A stretch of 59,881 bases of DNA from a virus, in the IMG/VR virus record IMGVR_UViG_3300021185_001015, positions 1-59,881 of that record, one strand, 5' to 3'. How positions within the stretch are numbered: the first letter of the stretch is position 1; each line of letters starts with the position of its first letter. Below the pieces are notes generated by a model. It was given only the letters and a program-made list of their open reading frames with translations, searched no databases and was not told where the DNA came from. Both the position numbers and the translations under genes were made by a program. This document shows, piece after piece, positions 5,042-36,319 of this stretch.

Positions 5042-6598
5042 TTATTCTCCTGTGTCAACTGGAGCCGCATCTTGCGCCTCTTGATCTTGTTGTGCCATAT
5101 TCATTTGATGCTGTTGATCTTGTGTTATAAAAGGTTGCTCTAATGCCAAATCACTTTCTATTTGAGAAATCTCTTCGTCAGTGAGCATTAACACATTGCG
5201 CTGAACATATGATTTACTGAACAGAGTACCAATGTAACTAGCCATACCGTTCAATACTTCAACTCTGCTTCTTAATATTTCTTGATTCTTTGATTCTGTA
5301 TAGTAAGCATCTTGTGCAAACTTATAAAACAAATCATCTTTAATATCATTCCAGTCTTCTTCTGTGATAATATTTTTGAGAAGAAGTTGGGTCTTCAACA
5401 AGTCATCAAACATAACTCCAAACTTTGTTCTAAGTCTAGACACAAACTTTGTGAACTTTAACTCGTCTCTATTGATTTCAGCAGAACGACCAAAGTTTAG
5501 GCCTGCTTGCTGTTCTAATCTAGAAACAGGAACATTTAATGACTGATAGAGTTTCTTTTGAAAGTAAACTACATCTTCAATCTGTCCTAAGTTTTGTCCT
5601 GCAGGCAATGTATCGATTGAAGTACCGCTACTGCCTTCTCTACGTGGTAACCAAAAGTCTTCCAACATAGACATAAACTTCTTATCATCACGGACTTCAC
5701 CTGTACTAGCATCGTATACTAGTTTGTTACGGTAACGATCCATGATATCTTTGAGATACTGTTCTGCTTTATTAGTAGGCAAGTTACCTACGTCAACATA
5801 GAATATTCTTCTTTCAGGAGCTCTCGTAATCCTATAAATGACTACGGCATTCTCCATCATTCTAAGTTGATTGGCAGGACGAATAGCTTTATGTAGATAA
5901 GATAAAGCAATATTCTTATCTTGATCTACTAGCCCAGAGGGTACATATGTGATAGCATCTTTAGTAATCTTTAGAGCATTATCATTCATAGGAGCTTTGT
6001 ATTGTGCTGCTCTTTGTGACATGCCTTTCTCATTGAAAATATAAAACTCTTCAACGCTTTTGACAAACTGTATGCCTTGCTCGTTCTTTTCTTTCTTTAC
6101 TTCTTTGACCTTAGTAATCTTACGTGGGTCAATGTAACGGATATCTCTAATGCCTTTTCTGGGATTAGCAGTATCAATTACTTTATGGAAATACAGACGT
6201 CCGTCAATATACCAACGTCTAAAATAATCGTGAGACCTGTTCTTGAAATCAAGCATCTCAACTATGTTTTCAAACTCATCTTGAATTTGTCGTTTCACCG
6301 CTTCAGAAACTTTCAACTTATCTGTGTCTAATGTCACAGGGTCTTCGTCATCTAAATTAGCAATCGCATCGTCAATGATATCTTGTATTGCAGTATCAAC
6401 ATCAGCCATCAAAGATATATCTCTATATCGCTTGATTAACTCTGCTTCGTTATTTGCAATACCTTCGATATCGAGATACGTGCCGTAATAACCACCAGCA
6501 CGTATACTCTCTACACCGCCCTCATCAGAAGGAGCCACGAAAGACTTTTCGGTCTTAGGCGGCTGCTCCCTTGAGATGTTAAACCCAAATATATTCAT
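5042..6598 (-). CDS. 20: Portal vertex protein gp20
   Basis: This 518-residue protein forms the dodecameric portal through which DNA is packaged by gp17. Diagnostic segments are DVDTAIQDIIDDAIAN, the YFRRWYIDGRLYFHKVID stretch, IRYIDPRKI, and further on LPAGQNLGQIEDVVYFQKKL and RLEQQAGLNFGRSAEI. These are the most conserved blocks of T4-like gp20, the marker used for marine myovirus diversity. Length matches T4 (524). It lies between tail tube gp19 and gp67 in T4 order. Confidence 0.98.
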   Translation of the reverse strand: MNIFGFNISREQPPKTEKSFVAPSDEGGVESIRAGGYYGTYLDIEGIANNEAELIKRYRDISLMADVDTAIQDIIDDAIANLDDEDPVTLDTDKLKVSEAVKRQIQDEFENIVEMLDFKNRSHDYFRRWYIDGRLYFHKVIDTANPRKGIRDIRYIDPRKITKVKEVKKEKNEQGIQFVKSVEEFYIFNEKGMSQRAAQYKAPMNDNALKITKDAITYVPSGLVDQDKNIALSYLHKAIRPANQLRMMENAVVIYRITRAPERRIFYVDVGNLPTNKAEQYLKDIMDRYRNKLVYDASTGEVRDDKKFMSMLEDFWLPRREGSSGTSIDTLPAGQNLGQIEDVVYFQKKLYQSLNVPVSRLEQQAGLNFGRSAEINRDELKFTKFVSRLRTKFGVMFDDLLKTQLLLKNIITEEDWNDIKDDLFYKFAQDAYYTESKNQEILRSRVEVLNGMASYIGTLFSKSYVQRNVLMLTDEEISQIESDLALEQPFITQDQQHQMNMAQQDQEAQDAAPVDTGE

Positions 6599-13582: not shown

Positions 13583-14911
13583 TTAACCTATCACCACAAC
13601 AGTGGTAATTTTAGCAGTCCACTTAAAAGATTTGCCGGATGAACCGGTGACATAAAATCTTAAAGTGTCACTTATATCATGGATTCTTGCATCTACGGTA
13701 GTATTAGCATCGTCGGCACTCACTAATATTTCATATAAATTGCCGATGTCACTAGTAATGCCACTATAATTGTCTGCTGATCCTTTAAGGTGCCATCCTC
13801 CGCCCTCGCTACCGCCGCCGTCTGTTCTTCTGGCCACAACATCTATGTTATAAAACATCGTAGAGTTTTCTGCTACGGGTATTCTGGAACTGCCTTCTAC
13901 TAGTATTTCTGTTTCAATACCATTCGTTGTCGAACCATATAATATATACTCATTTGAATAATTAGTTGCTCTTCCACTAGTAGGTAAATCTGTTAAATCA
14001 TTATACGAACCGGACAATGCTACAGCAGAAAGACCACCCAAATTATCTGCATCATTTTCAGGTAACCCATTTGCATCGCCACCATCAAGCGTGCCACCAG
14101 TAACTACTACATTTAATCCACTACCTGAACCCAGAAGACTATTCGAATCACTCAACTCGCTCACATCAGATGGAATAGTGGGGGTAGCTACCAAATCTGT
14201 GTATGCGCCTGATAGTGCTACCGGAGACAGTCCACCTAGATTCGCCACTTCATTTTCAGGTAAACCATTTGCATCGCCACCATCAAGCGTGCCACCAGTA
14301 ACTGCATATTTTACGCCAAGAGATCCATTAGCATCAGTCAAATCACTGACATCAGATGGAATAGTAGGGGTAGCTACCAAATCTGTGTATGCACCAGTAA
14401 CTGCGACAGGAGACAATGAAGGAACATCTGTTAAATCCGTATAACTAAGACCAACTCCTCCACCACTTGATGTAAATGTAAACCCGCCTGCTCCATCTGT
14501 AGTTAATACTTGACCATTAGAACCATCTGAAATGCCAAGTTCGGTAATAGTAGACGGTATAGTAGGAGTACCAGTGATATCGGAGTATGCACCAGTAGTT
14601 GCGACTGTAGAGAGAGATGCGCTAGTTTGTTTAGAATTTAACTGCGCTTGGATGTTAGATGTTACGTCTGAAAGATAATTCAACTGTGTAGTTGAAATAA
14701 CTGCTCCATCCATAATGTTGAGTTCAGATGGAGTAGCTTGAATACCAGTATTTGCAAGGTTAGCTAAGGCTAATTCGTGGCCACCAACAGTTACTCCATC
14801 ATGAATTCTTAGAGTATCTTTGGTAATATCTACACTGATTTCACCCAATGCGCCAGTGAACACGCTATGCTGTGACGAGGTGCCCCGGCGAAGTTTGACC
14901 ACTGCCGCCAT
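13583..14911 (-). CDS. Fibre-like protein with RRGT-type anchor domain
   Basis: This 442-residue protein starts VVKLRRGTSSQHSVFTGALG then EISVDITKDTLRIHDGV, the short N-terminal module found in many phage fibres and likely a virion anchor. It continues with an NIQAQLNSK helical segment and Gly/Thr-rich repeats, two of which are near-identical (GGTLDGGDANGLPENEVANL and its NDADNL copy). The last 130 residues look like a compact beta-rich tip. Function as a tail or whisker fibre is inferred from composition and neighbours. Confidence 0.7.
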   Translation of the reverse strand: MAAVVKLRRGTSSQHSVFTGALGEISVDITKDTLRIHDGVTVGGHELALANLANTGIQATPSELNIMDGAVISTTQLNYLSDVTSNIQAQLNSKQTSASLSTVATTGAYSDITGTPTIPSTITELGISDGSNGQVLTTDGAGGFTFTSSGGGVGLSYTDLTDVPSLSPVAVTGAYTDLVATPTIPSDVSDLTDANGSLGVKYAVTGGTLDGGDANGLPENEVANLGGLSPVALSGAYTDLVATPTIPSDVSELSDSNSLLGSGSGLNVVVTGGTLDGGDANGLPENDADNLGGLSAVALSGSYNDLTDLPTSGRATNYSNEYILYGSTTNGIETEILVEGSSRIPVAENSTMFYNIDVVARRTDGGGSEGGGWHLKGSADNYSGITSDIGNLYEILVSADDANTTVDARIHDISDTLRFYVTGSSGKSFKWTAKITTVVVIG

Positions 14912-29662: not shown

Positions 29663-30477
29663 GAGTAAACTATGTCTGCTGCAAATGGGGAACTAAGTAT
29701 GGGCCTCACTTTGTAAACAAACTAAAGAATATGGCAAAGCGTCATACTGATCCTGAGAAGTTTGACTTTCACTTCTATTGCTACACCGAGTATCCTGAGG
29801 GTCTTGATGAGGAGATTAAAGTAATTGACTTCCCTGACATTGACAGCATTCATCCTAAGTATTGGTTTGGTAACGATAATTTTAAATATGGCATGGCTCG
29901 TTGTTGGGACCGTCCTAAGACTTTTGTCTTCAACACTCATAATTTTGCTGAAGATAAACCTACTGGTCGTTTCGTCTTTCTTGATCTGGATGTTATTATC
30001 CAGAATGATATGGAACCTATCATTATATACGATTTAGATCGCCCTACTAAACTGAGAAGTTGGTGGCAAGATCCTCGTCCTATGACTACACGACAATTCA
30101 AACTTGCACACGGGGCTTACACTAACGGTAGTTGTCAAGTGTGGAGTGACGATCAGTGTGAAATCATCTGGAAAGATGTACTAGAACATCAAGAAAGAAT
30201 ATGGTTTACATTCACTGACGGCACCGATAACTATCACAGTTGGCGGTGGGGTGATTTCAGTGAAGCAAAATTATGGGGACACTTTCCGAGTTCGATGGCA
30301 TATTCATACAACAGAGGTAGAGACTGGGACGCAGACGATCTAGCAGTAGATACATACAGAGAAGATCCTATATTGTGCGTATTCAATATTGACTTGTTGC
30401 CGTTTGAAGATAAAAGCAGAGGCAGCACAAAACAAGATGACTTGGCAGACCCTAATTTATTGGAGCATTGGAGATGA
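29659..30477 (+). CDS. Putative glycosyltransferase 3 (DXD, GT-A-like)
   Basis: ATG 29659 sits behind a strong GGGAGGGAGA ribosome site and overlaps the previous stop as ATGA, so it is preferred over GTG 29647. The 272-residue product begins MRVNYVCCKWGTKYGPHFVN and has RCWDRPKTFVFN, FLDLDVIIQNDM (DLD 109-111), YHSWRWGDF, YSYNRGRDWD and LCVFNIDLLP. It is the longest copy and clearly paralogous to glycosyltransferase 2. Confidence 0.7.
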   Translation: MRVNYVCCKWGTKYGPHFVNKLKNMAKRHTDPEKFDFHFYCYTEYPEGLDEEIKVIDFPDIDSIHPKYWFGNDNFKYGMARCWDRPKTFVFNTHNFAEDKPTGRFVFLDLDVIIQNDMEPIIIYDLDRPTKLRSWWQDPRPMTTRQFKLAHGAYTNGSCQVWSDDQCEIIWKDVLEHQERIWFTFTDGTDNYHSWRWGDFSEAKLWGHFPSSMAYSYNRGRDWDADDLAVDTYREDPILCVFNIDLLPFEDKSRGSTKQDDLADPNLLEHWR

Positions 30478-31157
30478 TTAATATCTACACAGTGAAGTGG
30501 GGACAGAAGTATGGTCCTGAGCATGTGAATAAGATACACGATCAATGCAAAGAGTTTATCAAAGAAGACTTTGATTTCTATTGCTTGACTGAACTACCAC
30601 ATGATTTGAATCCAGACATACTTGTGATACCTTTTCCAGAAGATAACTACTACGAGAAATGGTGGAACAAGCTACATCTTTTTGATCGTAACATAGTAGA
30701 GCAGAAAGGTGAGAAGATATTTTTTGATTTAGATGTAATCATACAGAAAGATATAGATTGCATTGTAGATCATCCATGTGATGACAATCTTGTTTTTATT
30801 AGAACGAGTTGGCACAATATGCGAAAAATGAAAACAGATGTTGTTGATGCTCAGTGGAAATACACTGATTTAAACTCTAGCGTACTACGCTGGAATGACA
30901 GACTAAATATTGACAAGATTACAAAATTTGTGAAAGACTATCCTTCTCAGATGTTTTTCTATTACAGAGGACTAGATAATCTTTTTGCACATCAAGGAGA
31001 ACGTCTACTGAATATAGACTATTTTCCAGACGGTTGGGTGTATAGTTACAACAACGGTTACGTGTGGCCTACTGATGTGAGAAAGCAGACGTTTAGAGAA
31101 GACCCTCTTATTTGTTTATATGATTCTATGGAGAGACCTGAAGATGTTAAGCTATAA
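30474..31157 (+). CDS. Putative glycosyltransferase 4 (DXD, GT-A-like)
   Basis: ATG 30474 overlaps the previous stop (ATGA) with GGAG before it. The 227-residue protein has INIYTVKWGQKYGPEHVNKI, FYCLTELP, LFDRNIV, FFDLDVIIQKDID (DLD 85-87), LNSSVLRWND, GWVYSYNNG and LICLYDS. The same signature order as in copies 2 and 3 is kept, so all four arose by tandem duplication or repeated gain. It overlaps the methyltransferase-like gene by 14 bases. Confidence 0.7.
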   Translation: MINIYTVKWGQKYGPEHVNKIHDQCKEFIKEDFDFYCLTELPHDLNPDILVIPFPEDNYYEKWWNKLHLFDRNIVEQKGEKIFFDLDVIIQKDIDCIVDHPCDDNLVFIRTSWHNMRKMKTDVVDAQWKYTDLNSSVLRWNDRLNIDKITKFVKDYPSQMFFYYRGLDNLFAHQGERLLNIDYFPDGWVYSYNNGYVWPTDVRKQTFREDPLICLYDSMERPEDVKL

Positions 31158-31800
31158 CTTTTTGAACAACTACAAAAACTGGGGCGATGGATTAGACAAA
31201 ATCAATCACGAAATGCCTTGGAAGAACGAAGACTTCAGAAAGTCTCTCAATCCAAACTCTATGGAAGCTGCTATCTGGCTTGTAGAAGAATTATTAAAAC
31301 ACATAGATAATGAGAAGAAATTGAACATTACGGTGTTAAATTCTTGGTTAGGGTTTCCTCTCGTTCCATTGCTGTGCGAGAACTTGAATGTTGAGAAAAT
31401 AAATCTGATTGATGTGGACAATGACGCACTAGAATTGTCTAAAGTATTTAATCGTCATTATCGAAAAGAAGGTGTAGATTTGAATCATATCAACTGGGAC
31501 GTTCCGTTTGCGTTTCACGACATTAATGCAATGGAATCTGATGTAGTAATCTCAATGTGTGCTGAGACAATGTATCCTTTGAAAGAATTGACTACTGCAA
31601 ATCCTGATTGTATCTTTGCAATACAGAACTCAAATCTAATTAAAGAGATGTACGGCATCAATTGTATGAATAGTATTGAAGAGCATATAGAAAATACAGG
31701 CATAAAAAATGTCCAGTATCAAGGCTCTATTGAGCAGAAGTACTGGACATTTGATGGCCTAAACGAGTTTGACCGCTTTATGGCTATTGGAACGAAGTAG
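31144..31800 (+). CDS. Methyltransferase-like protein
   Basis: ATG 31144 has GGAGAG upstream. The 218-residue protein shows a Rossmann-like order: ITVLNSWLGFPLVPLL (62-77, in place of the usual GxGxG loop), INLIDVDNDALELSK with acidic Asp90/Asp92 (86-100), and later DVVISMCAETMYPLKEL (133-149), where a strand and post-IV type motif fall. A class I SAM methyltransferase is the best guess, but the glycine loop is atypical. It is last in the cassette and converges with the oxygenase gene, overlapping its end by 17 bases. A terminator for the opposite strand is embedded in its coding sequence. Confidence 0.5.
   Translation: MLSYNFLNNYKNWGDGLDKINHEMPWKNEDFRKSLNPNSMEAAIWLVEELLKHIDNEKKLNITVLNSWLGFPLVPLLCENLNVEKINLIDVDNDALELSKVFNRHYRKEGVDLNHINWDVPFAFHDINAMESDVVISMCAETMYPLKELTTANPDCIFAIQNSNLIKEMYGINCMNSIEEHIENTGIKNVQYQGSIEQKYWTFDGLNEFDRFMAIGTK
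31702..31752 (-). terminator. Terminator for the minus-strand operon, inside the methyltransferase gene
   Basis: A perfect 12-base inverted repeat (31707-31718 with 31741-31752) surrounds a 22-base loop that itself contains GCTC/GAGC. On the minus strand the stem is followed by a T6 run, giving an intrinsic terminator 32 bases past the oxygenase stop. Confidence 0.8.
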
Positions 31801-32440: not shown

Positions 32441-33145
32441 TTAGTCTAACTTATCCTGAGGTATAGTATGATGATACAAAACAACGTCAGTGCCTTGTAG
32501 TTCTTCATAATGATAACCATTTACAAAGTTCCAACGAGCATCTGGCTCTTTAATGTATCCCCACTTGACAGCTTTCTCGCCGTAAGTCAATAGACGCCAC
32601 ATAGTAAATGTGTCCCACTTTCTAGCATCTTCGGGGTAGTGTAACATGTCATAGTCAGGTTCCCGTTGTGCAAGATACTCAGTGTACCAAGCTCCCATGA
32701 GATCCATTGTTGCTTCGTTTTTTCTATATATGAAGAAGCCACAATGGCAAGTCATCTCTTCACCTTCTGCTAACTTAGTCAGTTTAGCGTTGTATGGACG
32801 ATTCTTAGTGAATACGATATCCATATCATCAGGCAACTCGTCCCAGACATTCTGAATATCTTCATGTTGGCACATCATATCAGCATCAAGATAGCAAGTA
32901 ATATCGTATGGAGTTTTGTTGAGTGCCCAAAGTTTAGCACGAATGTGTCGTGGAATACCTTCTGTGACTATGCTATCAAATAGATCATAGTCTTCAGGTT
33001 CGACCCATTCTTCGTGTGTAAAGAATGTTATGTTAGCTTCTGGATAGAAATCTCTTACTGATTCTGCTAGTACTTTAGCATAACGATAGAATCCTTTCTT
33101 AACAGAAGCAACAATAACAAACCCTTTAGTCTGTTTCTTCGGCAT
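32441..33145 (-). CDS. Putative glycosyltransferase 5 (DAD, GT-A-like)
   Basis: ATG 33145 is preferred to TTG 33151. The 234-residue protein begins MPKKQTKGFVIVASVKKGFY, has AKLWALNKTPYDITCYLDAD with the DXD motif DAD at 87-89, and CGFFIYRKNEATMDLM and YHHTIPQDKLD further on. This is a GT-A fold pattern, but not the WGxKY family of the plus-strand cassette. It overlaps the gene before it and is coupled to the oxygenase. Confidence 0.65.
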   Translation of the reverse strand: MPKKQTKGFVIVASVKKGFYRYAKVLAESVRDFYPEANITFFTHEEWVEPEDYDLFDSIVTEGIPRHIRAKLWALNKTPYDITCYLDADMMCQHEDIQNVWDELPDDMDIVFTKNRPYNAKLTKLAEGEEMTCHCGFFIYRKNEATMDLMGAWYTEYLAQREPDYDMLHYPEDARKWDTFTMWRLLTYGEKAVKWGYIKEPDARWNFVNGYHYEELQGTDVVLYHHTIPQDKLD

Positions 33146-33614
33146 TCTCAAGTTCCTTCATCAGCAAAATAGTAGCATAAGCCTGTACTTCCATAACAGA
33201 TTTAGACTTACGAATCATTCGCTTCAGTTCAGTATTTTTAGAGTTTTTGATTGCGGCGATTTCAAACGCTTCAAGTTTACAGTTGAACAGCATTTCTTGT
33301 CTGCCACGGACTGCTTGTGATTCTCGTCTTTCCATTTGACGCTTGATGTTTTCGTTGCGTCTGTCTAGGCCTTCTTGTGTGTTAGCATCAATTTCGTCTT
33401 CAGTATACTGTTCTAACACAGCTTTCATGTCAGGATTTGTGCCATCAGAATCCTGAATAGAAGCCATGCTAGTCTGTCCATTCGTTTGTTCGATAGTTAC
33501 AATGAGGTGACGATTTTCCTTATTTGACCAATAAGGATTGAGATATTTCTTTTTAGGGGTTTCCGTAAACATTATCTCAACTGGACTGTCTACAGAAACT
33601 GCTAATTCTGTCAT
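33126..33614 (-). CDS. Hypothetical protein
   Basis: This 162-residue protein starts MTELAVSVDSPVEIMFTETP with a GGAG ribosome site. It has a short beta-rich N-terminal third (HLIVTIEQTNGQTSMASIQD) and a long charged helical remainder (RRNENIKRQMERRESQAVRG). There is no membrane or catalytic motif. The position between fibre-region genes suggests a structural or chaperone role, but no family is recognised. Confidence 0.55.
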   Translation of the reverse strand: MTELAVSVDSPVEIMFTETPKKKYLNPYWSNKENRHLIVTIEQTNGQTSMASIQDSDGTNPDMKAVLEQYTEDEIDANTQEGLDRRNENIKRQMERRESQAVRGRQEMLFNCKLEAFEIAAIKNSKNTELKRMIRKSKSVMEVQAYATILLMKELENAEETD

Positions 33615-33652
33615 AATATAACTCCAAATAATAAATCTTCAATACTATATAG

Positions 33653-34975
33653 TCATTTTGTTTTATCGATTATAAGTTGAAATTTTCTAGTTTTTTTATT
33701 TACAGGAATTTCTTTTACTACGAATACATCAAAAGAAACATTATCTAAATTTTTCTTATGTAAAAGCTCAACTAAATTATTTTCAACCTTTTTTATAGCC
33801 TCTGACTTTTCTTCTTTTGTTAGATGTGATTCTAAACAAATGGGAAAACGAAAAGAAGTATCGCTAGTAACTTGCATTTGAAATTTACTTACTCCCTTGA
33901 CATAAAATCTACGAGTAATAAAAGACGTAAAACTTTCAGTATCGCCAACAGAATTTTTAAAGTAAACTTTAGTTTCTGTTCTGCTAATAAGATTTTTTGC
34001 TATAGTAGGGTATGTATTTTTTTCACTAATAGGAACAAGAACATCTGACATTTTATATCTAATTAGGGGCATAGTGTAATTACATAAATTAGTGACTAAA
34101 GTGTGATCTTCAAAAAATTCAAAAATAAGTTTATCATCAAAAAGAGACATAGTTTCTTTATCACGATTTGATCTTCCCATGTTACCATGTTCACTACTGG
34201 CATATAAGCTCATTACATGAGAGGTGGGAAATACTTTATTCAAAAATATAAGATCGTCTTTAGTTACAGTTTCTGCTGTTGCTATTATAACTTGTGGTGA
34301 TATGGATAAGTTATTATTGATTTTTTCTTCTGCTAAAATTTTCAGCATCGTAGTGTAGCCGCAAAGAATGTTTGGCTGAAATTGATTTATATCTTCAACA
34401 GTTTTAGAAACAGCTTGATTAATTTCAAACCCTTTTGCATTGAATAGTAATTTAGGCCACTTTATCGCTGAATCATATCCTGCATAATGACCGCTTACAT
34501 TACCGTAAAATGCAATCGCTGGCTTTTTTCTTTTTGTAAAAACCCAACGTACATAGTTAATTAACAGGGAAATTTTTGTTGATAATTTTGCAGGAGATAT
34601 AGAGGATAACCCTCTAATAGTATCTTTGAAGTGCGATACAAAATAGCCTTCTTCGCCTGAAGACCCAGAAGTAACGAGTGCGGTATATTTATTAAGAAAC
34701 AAATCTCTAGGATCTGAAGAGGTGGTTACAAATTCTTCAATTCCTTTTTTGGTTATTTTTCTGTCTGTAACAATATCATCAAAGTTTTCCATTGCTATAG
34801 ATTTAGTCAGGACAGGAAAATCTTCTGGCACCGAAGAGTCAATACTAATGCAATTCTCTCTTATTATTTTAGCATAATAAGGAGAATTGGCATTAGCATA
34901 TTTGACTAATTTTCTAAATTTTTTAAGCCGCTCACTCTCAAAATCAGACATGTCCGATTCATTTTTTATCTTCAT
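33653..34975 (-). CDS. PaaK/CapK-type adenylate-forming enzyme
   Basis: This 440-residue protein has the order of phenylacetate-CoA ligase and CapK relatives. It has an N-terminal KKFRKLVKYANANSPYYAKI helix, the ATP loop VTSGSSGEEG (101-110), an IATAE strand (231-235), the ASSEHG motif (259-264) in place of YGxTE, PLIRYKMSD (303-311) for RYxxGD, and a C-terminal KKTRKFQ (427-433) that could supply the catalytic Lys. Such enzymes activate an acid as acyl-AMP, often in capsule biosynthesis. It lies directly downstream of a YTG-repeat fibre and upstream of a glycosyltransferase and oxygenase. The substrate is unknown. Confidence 0.75.
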   Translation of the reverse strand: MKIKNESDMSDFESERLKKFRKLVKYANANSPYYAKIIRENCISIDSSVPEDFPVLTKSIAMENFDDIVTDRKITKKGIEEFVTTSSDPRDLFLNKYTALVTSGSSGEEGYFVSHFKDTIRGLSSISPAKLSTKISLLINYVRWVFTKRKKPAIAFYGNVSGHYAGYDSAIKWPKLLFNAKGFEINQAVSKTVEDINQFQPNILCGYTTMLKILAEEKINNNLSISPQVIIATAETVTKDDLIFLNKVFPTSHVMSLYASSEHGNMGRSNRDKETMSLFDDKLIFEFFEDHTLVTNLCNYTMPLIRYKMSDVLVPISEKNTYPTIAKNLISRTETKVYFKNSVGDTESFTSFITRRFYVKGVSKFQMQVTSDTSFRFPICLESHLTKEEKSEAIKKVENNLVELLHKKNLDNVSFDVFVVKEIPVNKKTRKFQLIIDKTK

Positions 34976-34990
34976 AATATAGATGAATCT

Positions 34991-35530
34991 TTAGGCAGTT
35001 TTTAGCCAAAGGTTTACGGTTGATACATTTTCAGTGCTTGCCTGAATTGTATCTCCTGCATAATTTCCAGTAAAGTTATTAGCATAACTACCTGAATACG
35101 TTCCTGCAAAAGTATTTGAATAATAACCAGTATACGTTCCTGAGTAAGTACCAGCGTACGCTGAAGTGCCTACATAGTAACCAGTAAAGTTTTGATTGTA
35201 TGCTCCAGTGTAGTATCCAGTGTATGTCTTAGCACCAGTATAGAAACCTGTATAGAATCCAGTGTAGTAACCGGTGTAGTAGTTAGTACCACCTGCGAAT
35301 CCAGAGTAGAAAAGAGTATATGCTTCAGTTCTAGCGTAAGCCCCTGCATAAGCGCCTGCGTATGCTGAAGTTCCTACATAGTTTCCTGCATATGCTCCAG
35401 AGAATGAACCAGTGTAAGATCCAGAATATGTCTTAGCACCTACATACGATCCTACATAATTTCCAGAATAGTTACCTGCAAAAGTATTTGAATAATAACC
35501 AGTATAGTTGCCAGTAAAATTGCCAGTGTA
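34991..35530 (-). repeat. Degenerate YTG-coding repeat tract
   Basis: The 3' half of the YTG-repeat fibre gene is a low-complexity tract of short in-frame units encoding Y-[TAS]-G-[NY] patterns. Longer repeats are visible too, such as YYSNTFAG at two places and VGTSAYAG at two. Confidence 0.65.
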
Positions 35531-36319
35531 CGTGCCTGCGTAATTTTCTGAAGCTACTTGTTGGCGAGTATCAACGAGACTATCACCCATTTGAACCCAA
35601 GTGCCGCCTGCAGGAGCAGACGCTTGTAACTTATATGTACCTACACCAGAGTCAATTATACGATTTCTAAAATTAGGAACCATCTGTTCGATTTCAGCAA
35701 CAGTCATCATCTTAACATTAGTGCCTTCTAGTTTTAGAGAAGATAAGTCAGAATTTGCTGATGTAGTAGGAGCAGTCTTTTGCCACAAGTAAAGGTTAGT
35801 GCTTCCGCCTTGATTGCTATCTGTGATAGTGGCACGAGAAGTCCAAGTACCGCCTGCAGGAGCAGATGCTGCTAATGAATATTGACCAACAGTGTAGCCT
35901 GTACTAGTTACCATGTCTTCAATAACTTTATCTAGTACATCTGTATCTATTGCTGAATCGTTGAATTCTTTAATAGAGGAGTCCCAGCCAACTGGACGAT
36001 TTGTGATGCTTTCAGATGCTGCCGCTGTTACTTGCTTGAAGTAGTACGTAGTATCTGTAGTTGCACCAGCAGTTGGATGAGTACCGATTGCATCATTACG
36101 AATAGTGTTAGTCCAAGTACCAATACTAGTACCTGTCAAAGCATTCGAGGTATCAACATTAAGTTCTGCTGTACCTGTGCCATCTGTATCAGTTGCAAAC
36201 TTATTTGTGATTACATAAGAGAGATATTGATTTATCTCGCCGGCCGTCATTTCCTGCAAGCCCTGAAAGTTTGCAGAAGTGATTGGAGTACCTGATGCCT
36301 TTATTCTTAATGGTTGCAT
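34991..36319 (-). CDS. YTG-repeat tail fibre protein
   Basis: This 442-residue protein has an N-terminal region (LRIKASGTPITSANFQGLQE) with two related Gly/Thr/Trp segments (PAGGTWTSRATIT, PAGGTWVQMGDSL). A C-terminal stretch of about 150 residues (about 265-420) is almost only Tyr, Thr/Ser/Ala, Gly and Asn with short units such as YTGYYTGFYTG and FAGNYSGNYVGS. The Tyr-Gly period of three to four residues suggests a fibrous beta structure. It ends STVNLWLKTA. A virion fibre is likely; the repeat is unusual. Confidence 0.65.
   Translation of the reverse strand: MQPLRIKASGTPITSANFQGLQEMTAGEINQYLSYVITNKFATDTDGTGTAELNVDTSNALTGTSIGTWTNTIRNDAIGTHPTAGATTDTTYYFKQVTAAASESITNRPVGWDSSIKEFNDSAIDTDVLDKVIEDMVTSTGYTVGQYSLAASAPAGGTWTSRATITDSNQGGSTNLYLWQKTAPTTSANSDLSSLKLEGTNVKMMTVAEIEQMVPNFRNRIIDSGVGTYKLQASAPAGGTWVQMGDSLVDTRQQVASENYAGTYTGNFTGNYTGYYSNTFAGNYSGNYVGSYVGAKTYSGSYTGSFSGAYAGNYVGTSAYAGAYAGAYARTEAYTLFYSGFAGGTNYYTGYYTGFYTGFYTGAKTYTGYYTGAYNQNFTGYYVGTSAYAGTYSGTYTGYYSNTFAGTYSGSYANNFTGNYAGDTIQASTENVSTVNLWLKTA

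Follow-up and report, generated by a model that had tools for sequence, protein, structure and literature searches.

An intact gene for an acid-activating, adenylate-forming enzyme lies immediately downstream of a presumed tail-fibre gene in the virus record analysed here (59,881 bases; hereafter the window, meaning the whole stretch). We show that this gene is a rare, polymorphic and swappable plug-in of the host-recognition region of its phage, gained or lost as a single unit. Tentatively, we propose that the enzyme activates an acyl or aryl group with which a surface glycan can optionally be modified, as one of several interchangeable add-ons to host recognition.

The window derives from a T4-like myovirus, as indicated by matching terminase, sheath, baseplate and neck genes. 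Its terminase shares no more than about 49% identity with cyanophage terminases. Because psbA was absent from all 10 cluster-bearing records searched, including ones of 162 and 125 kb, a cyanophage identity was rejected and a cyanobacterial host is unlikely. The cassette around the enzyme, running from the fibre gene to a set of glycosyltransferase genes on the opposite strand (Table 1), recurs in conserved form across dozens of contigs from marine phages. It is framed by baseplate genes on one side and a neck protein on the other, with optional genes in between, and so fits the host recognition cluster of T4-like marine phages: a variable island of fibres and glycosyltransferases set among structural genes. 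The available text of a study of pelagimyophages (PMC7029224) describes a host recognition cluster that is hypervariable and includes both fibres and glycosyltransferases, and proposes that this cluster alters the O-chain of the host. The pelagimyophage and cyanomyophage clusters in that text resemble the present region in being hypervariable islands within the structural genes that combine fibres with glycosyltransferases, but, unlike the window, no adenylate-forming ligase is mentioned for them there. Elsewhere in the window, the protein encoded at 13583-14911 begins with a major tropism determinant N-terminal domain (Mtd_N, E 4e-11) and is possibly a diversified receptor-binding protein.

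Table 1. Features of the fibre-side cassette and of the enzyme insertion, in window coordinates.
Feature	Position	Strand	Basis
Presumed tail-fibre protein, 442 aa, 4-aa YTG-type repeats (12-nt repeat in DNA)	34991-36319	-	ORF and repeat
15-nt gap from fibre stop to enzyme; 5' junction of the insertion	34976-34990	-	
Adenylate-forming (PaaK/F390-synthetase-like) enzyme, 440 aa	33653-34975	-	ORF, family profile, motifs
Leader TGACTATATAGTATT, conserved ahead of the 162-aa gene; marks the 3' junction	33641-33655	-	
Conserved protein downstream of the fibre, 162 aa, no assigned function	33126-33614	-	Conservation
Putative glycosyltransferase, 236 aa, GT2/GT8-like	32441-33151	-	Sub-threshold Pfam matches
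2OG-Fe(II)-oxygenase-fold protein, 218 aa	31784-32440	-	AlphaFold and Foldseek
Methyltransferase-like protein	31120-31800	+	Conserved position; weak sub-threshold Pfam matches to spermine synthase-type families
Glycosyltransferase-like protein	30468-31157	+	phrog_1962, E 3e-10; conserved position
Putative glycosyltransferase, 276 aa	29647-30477	+	Conserved position; no Pfam match; label inferred
Putative glycosyltransferase, 256 aa	28892-29662	+	Conserved position; no Pfam match; label inferred
GT8-like protein, 239 aa	28219-28938	+	Pfam Glyco_transf_8 E 5e-4, below cut-off; conserved

A reading of the sequence alone had placed the enzyme directly behind a YTG-repeat fibre and ahead of a glycosyltransferase and an oxygenase. 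The first part holds: the fibre gene, whose product has no Pfam or PHROG match, stops 15 nt upstream and carries the repeat. The two other genes are indeed downstream, with the 162-aa gene intervening before the glycosyltransferase. Their labels need qualification, since the glycosyltransferase matches Pfam below threshold and the 218-aa protein matches no family by sequence, although its fold model is confident (AlphaFold pLDDT 91; best Foldseek matches P4H, Ofd2, AlkB and PHD2, with low TM-scores of 0.3-0.4). In this protein His-Asn-Asn (121-123) replaces the expected HxD/E and is invariant in 31/31 aligned relatives, so that the protein seems to lack the carboxylate that normally helps to bind the metal.

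The enzyme itself belongs to the adenylate-forming (ANL) superfamily and, as judged from its motifs and profile matches, to the PaaK-like branch. Its reading frame is full length, with a possible true start at Met9 (~34951) that aligns with the start in a relative, locus L002. All signature motifs are intact: TSGSSGE (102-108), YASSE (258-262), RYKMSD (306-311), R332 and K431 within TRKFQ. These correspond to the A3 Gly-rich loop, A5 Y-x-x-[ST]-E, A7 R-Y-x-x-x-D, the A8 Arg and the A10 Lys, which are all present in the window, in L002 and in the bacterial relatives; the ATP-binding and Lys motifs thus persist across relatives. A seven-member profile matched solved PaaK-like structures (6wuq, 2e-23; 9s3l, 5e-22; 6siw, 2e-21; 4r1l, 9e-20). 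The sequence-only reading of a full-length PaaK/CapK-type enzyme is borne out by this evidence, yet the profile searches and phylogeny against PaaK, CapK and F390 synthetase leave the enzyme below the cut-offs of PaaK, F390 synthetase and TIGR02304 and in a small separate clade. The best family match, TIGR02304 ('F390 synthetase-related'), covers residues 5-431 and hence nearly the full length (E 7.5e-20), and its 71.3 bits fall well under the cut-off of 251.9 bits, against 755 for an E. coli plasmid control. The coenzyme F390 synthetase profile TIGR03335 gave 15.3 bits (cut-off 458.7 bits), and the PaaK profile TIGR02155 (cut-off 646 bits; control E. coli PaaK, 790) gave no match at E<=1. Together with the tree described below, these scores rule out membership in PaaK, F390 synthetase or TIGR02304. 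An AlphaFold model built from 3 sequences reached a pLDDT of 45, poor because relatives are too few, and at that quality the acid pocket and the two-domain ANL fold are unreadable.

The anatomy of the insertion is exact. In carriers, the enzyme gene sits exactly in the interval that separates the fibre stop from the leader TTGACTATATAGTATT, which is conserved ahead of the 162-aa gene, and in the window the TGA of this leader doubles as the stop codon of the enzyme. In many empty-site phages the same leader comes straight after the fibre stop. The leader (ACTATATAGT) contains a palindrome; it is kept in many relatives, occurs once in the window and could be a promoter or a processing site.

We compared 77 distinct loci in which the fibre gene and the 162-aa gene are both present, found by using the oxygenase-fold and glycosyltransferase neighbours as bait. 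The slot is empty in 75 of them, with only 22-94 nt between the two genes, and no other gene was found in it across the 77. The enzyme is present in the remaining two, L002 and L001, the latter a near-identical copy of the window. It is consequently not a standard part of the fibre module. A third copy, comprising the last 110 residues only, lies at the edge of contig L011. These three are the carriers recovered from scans of 2.9 million viral contigs, in agreement with the earlier view that such an enzyme is rare in phages; three other profiles and one fragment profile added none, and pattern-based scans of this sort may miss divergent carriers. In the literature searched, no paper on a fibre-linked F390/PaaK enzyme in phages came up. 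An apparent further case, a faecal scaffold deposited in GenBank as 'bacteriophage' (L092, MT835502.1), holds a CapK-like enzyme in the part that was fetched; it was rejected as a second phage case, because the surrounding polysaccharide cluster (glycosyltransferases, flippase) looks bacterial and the enzyme falls in another clade.

Presence and absence alternate among close relatives. Locus L008 has neighbouring proteins 95-98% identical and no enzyme, and the local difference between L002 and its empty sister L016 is the enzyme alone, so no partner gene was inserted nearby along with it. When three flank proteins were concatenated and a tree was built for 86 loci, each carrier paired with an empty locus (L001/L008, L002/L016 and L011/L012); this tree, made by a quick method, needs three changes, and such counts cannot separate gain from loss. 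The three phage enzymes nonetheless form one clade (100/99) and diverge more between carriers than most of the flank proteins do. A single entry, with later exchange through the flanks held in common, would explain this pattern, and separate insertions at the same base appear less likely. We suggest that the gene probably entered this T4-like lineage on one occasion, arriving alone and landing between the fibre stop and the next leader. It would since have come and gone in closely related phages, with homologous recombination across those common flanks as the likeliest route. Other slots of the cassette also hold optional genes, at L034:8628-9917, L080:9263-11071, L041:9191-10297, L036:8648-9031 and L059:7817-8416, whose products comprise a DUF1552 protein, a fatty-acid desaturase plus a cytidylyltransferase, a DNA ligase, an Fe-S assembly protein and a methyltransferase. 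Additionally, L068 has a 185-aa gene with no Pfam match (5647-6204) between the glycosyltransferase and the oxygenase-fold gene, where L069 and L074 show similar spacing.

An enzyme so unusual in phages, with a base composition unlike that of the downstream genes, might be thought to reflect chimeric assembly or bacterial contamination. Third-position GC is 0.20-0.27 for the enzyme and 0.34-0.39 for the three downstream genes; this is suggestive only, because the fibre gene (0.26) falls within the range of the enzyme. The gene is also not confined to the window. The same insertion with a different sequence (72% identical in L002 and about 54% in L011) recurs at this site in contigs of other datasets; in comparisons between carriers, the enzymes are 71% and 53-55% identical. 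L001 covers the insertion at 99.96% identity and is possibly not independent, as it may share its source with the window. With independent contigs holding the enzyme at one site, we rejected chimeric assembly, and an artefact of either kind is highly improbable. The rarity of the gene would equally suit a passenger with no present use, caught while entering or leaving the population. However, copies at about 53% identity are still open and retain their motifs as far as the L011 fragment extends, and the differences between the window and L002 enzymes at the three codon positions (0.24/0.14/0.46) indicate purifying selection on the protein. A useless passenger is thus hard to credit.

The nearest bacterial relatives are few. 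A scan of genome contigs gave one gene from a Pseudomonadales MAG (49% identity), and whole-genome searches found five homologues among 137 genomes of one Pseudomonadales family (G001, G963, G1118, G1181 and G1185; 44-50% identity); no other close homologue came from searches at wider rank, which covered 369 genomes for the class and 398 for the phylum. In a 37-sequence tree, in which some rows are long branches, the phage and Pseudomonadales members group together with 100/100 support; a long stem leads to this clade and separates it from TIGR02304, a metal-plasmid group and PaaK/CapK. In contrast to the phage copies, the Pseudomonadales genes are chromosomal and stand-alone, with GC-rich third positions and without fibre or phage context. 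The better-known enzymes differ in other respects. E. coli phenylacetate-CoA ligase (PaaK, b1398; TIGR02155) shares the A3, A5, A7, A8 and A10 motifs and a similar length, but the phage enzyme lacks a TIGR02155 match and a paa pathway, has a P-loop without the terminal Lys and sits in a separate clade. The TIGR02304 members examined (L183-L185) belong to an operon of KAS III, an NAD(P) oxidoreductase and an MBL hydrolase that is absent from the phage and its bacterial clade, and they too group separately. Next nearest are plasmid proteins of the 'phenylacetate--CoA ligase family' (Metabacillus, Haloarcula, Arthrobacter and others; about 23-31% identity); the aligned examples retain a CxCG motif, which is missing from the phage clade. 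The plasmid clade (L088-L090, L188-L190) repeatedly adjoins heavy-metal or cation transporters, metal regulators and methyltransferases; because it is a different clade, this metal-resistance context was not used to assign function. Finally, location among sugar-polymer genes, which would point to a CapK-type enzyme of a polysaccharide cluster, gives a mixed picture: the phage copies adjoin putative glycosyltransferases and the bacterial homologues do not.

PaaK-like enzymes activate acids as adenylates and usually hand them on to CoA; members of the superfamily form free acyl-adenylates or thioesters, and a separate transferase is normally needed to move the group further. We infer the activity, substrate and use of the phage enzyme against this background. 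It is predicted to bind ATP and a carboxylic acid and to join them as an acyl- or aryl-adenylate; if it works as PaaK does, the acyl group would then pass to CoA. We propose that the activated group may be used on a surface glycan built or altered by the adjoining glycosyltransferase/oxygenase cassette, with the host envelope a likelier target than the virion. What favours this reading is the identity of the neighbours and the O-chain proposal made for similar clusters in the available text of PMC7029224.

There is an appreciable chance, short of an even one, that the gene instead serves metabolism, activating a host aryl or fatty acid to a CoA thioester during infection and so fuelling catabolism or membrane and lipid metabolism, with the fibre-side site merely tolerant of insertion. 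Metabolic use is favoured by the absence of the enzyme from near-identical cassettes, by the want of a recognised transferase (in the window proteins that were scanned, Pfam revealed neither an acyltransferase nor a carrier protein) and by bacterial neighbours with a catabolic look. The clade's bacterial members, found in one Pseudomonadales family only, have a tannase/feruloyl esterase within about 5 kb in two of five cases and a FadL-type porin and an FMN oxidoreductase in one each; two related ones adjoin EptA-like transferases. The esterase and the porin point at least as much to acid catabolism. Furthermore, other slots of the region carry metabolic cargo (the desaturase, Fe-S protein and DNA ligase). 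Nonetheless, the gene neighbourhoods vary among the bacteria and might be coincidental, and the exact position in the fibre/glycosyltransferase cassette is constant in all carriers, in a slot that held no other gene in the loci compared. On balance we slightly prefer surface-glycan modification to metabolic use.

The earlier suggestion that the enzyme works with its neighbours to place an acyl or amino-acid group on a sugar or on the fibre finds no support in that form, given its absence from 75 of 77 loci, the lack of an acyltransferase or carrier among the scanned proteins, and the lack of a shared operon or common polysaccharide cluster around the five Pseudomonadales homologues. Acylation of sugar or fibre is possible as an optional trait. 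Direct modification of the adjacent fibre, by acylation or amino-acylation of its tyrosine-rich repeats to tune adsorption, would account for the enzyme following the fibre gene after just 15 nt. It is the least supported functional reading, because fibres are 85-89% identical in phages without the enzyme (L012 and, at 89%, L010); the separate transferase that family knowledge would lead one to expect was not recognised, and we consider this role improbable. A bolder account would make the enzyme the founding member of an uncharacterised adenylate-forming clade. Phages would use it to decorate either a surface glycan or the tyrosine-rich fibre with an acyl or aryl group, which might be phenolic, and the gene would be an optional module, exchanged by recombination, that alters host recognition or excludes rival phages; taken whole, we regard this account as unlikely.

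Overall, these phages offer a natural presence/absence pair, in which close relatives differ locally by one intact acid-activating enzyme beside the fibre gene. An isolated carrier, if obtained, would allow acylation of surface sugar or fibre to be tested directly against activation of a host acid in infection. The small enzyme clade common to one Pseudomonadales family and this phage lineage is, in addition, a weak pointer to the host of the phage.
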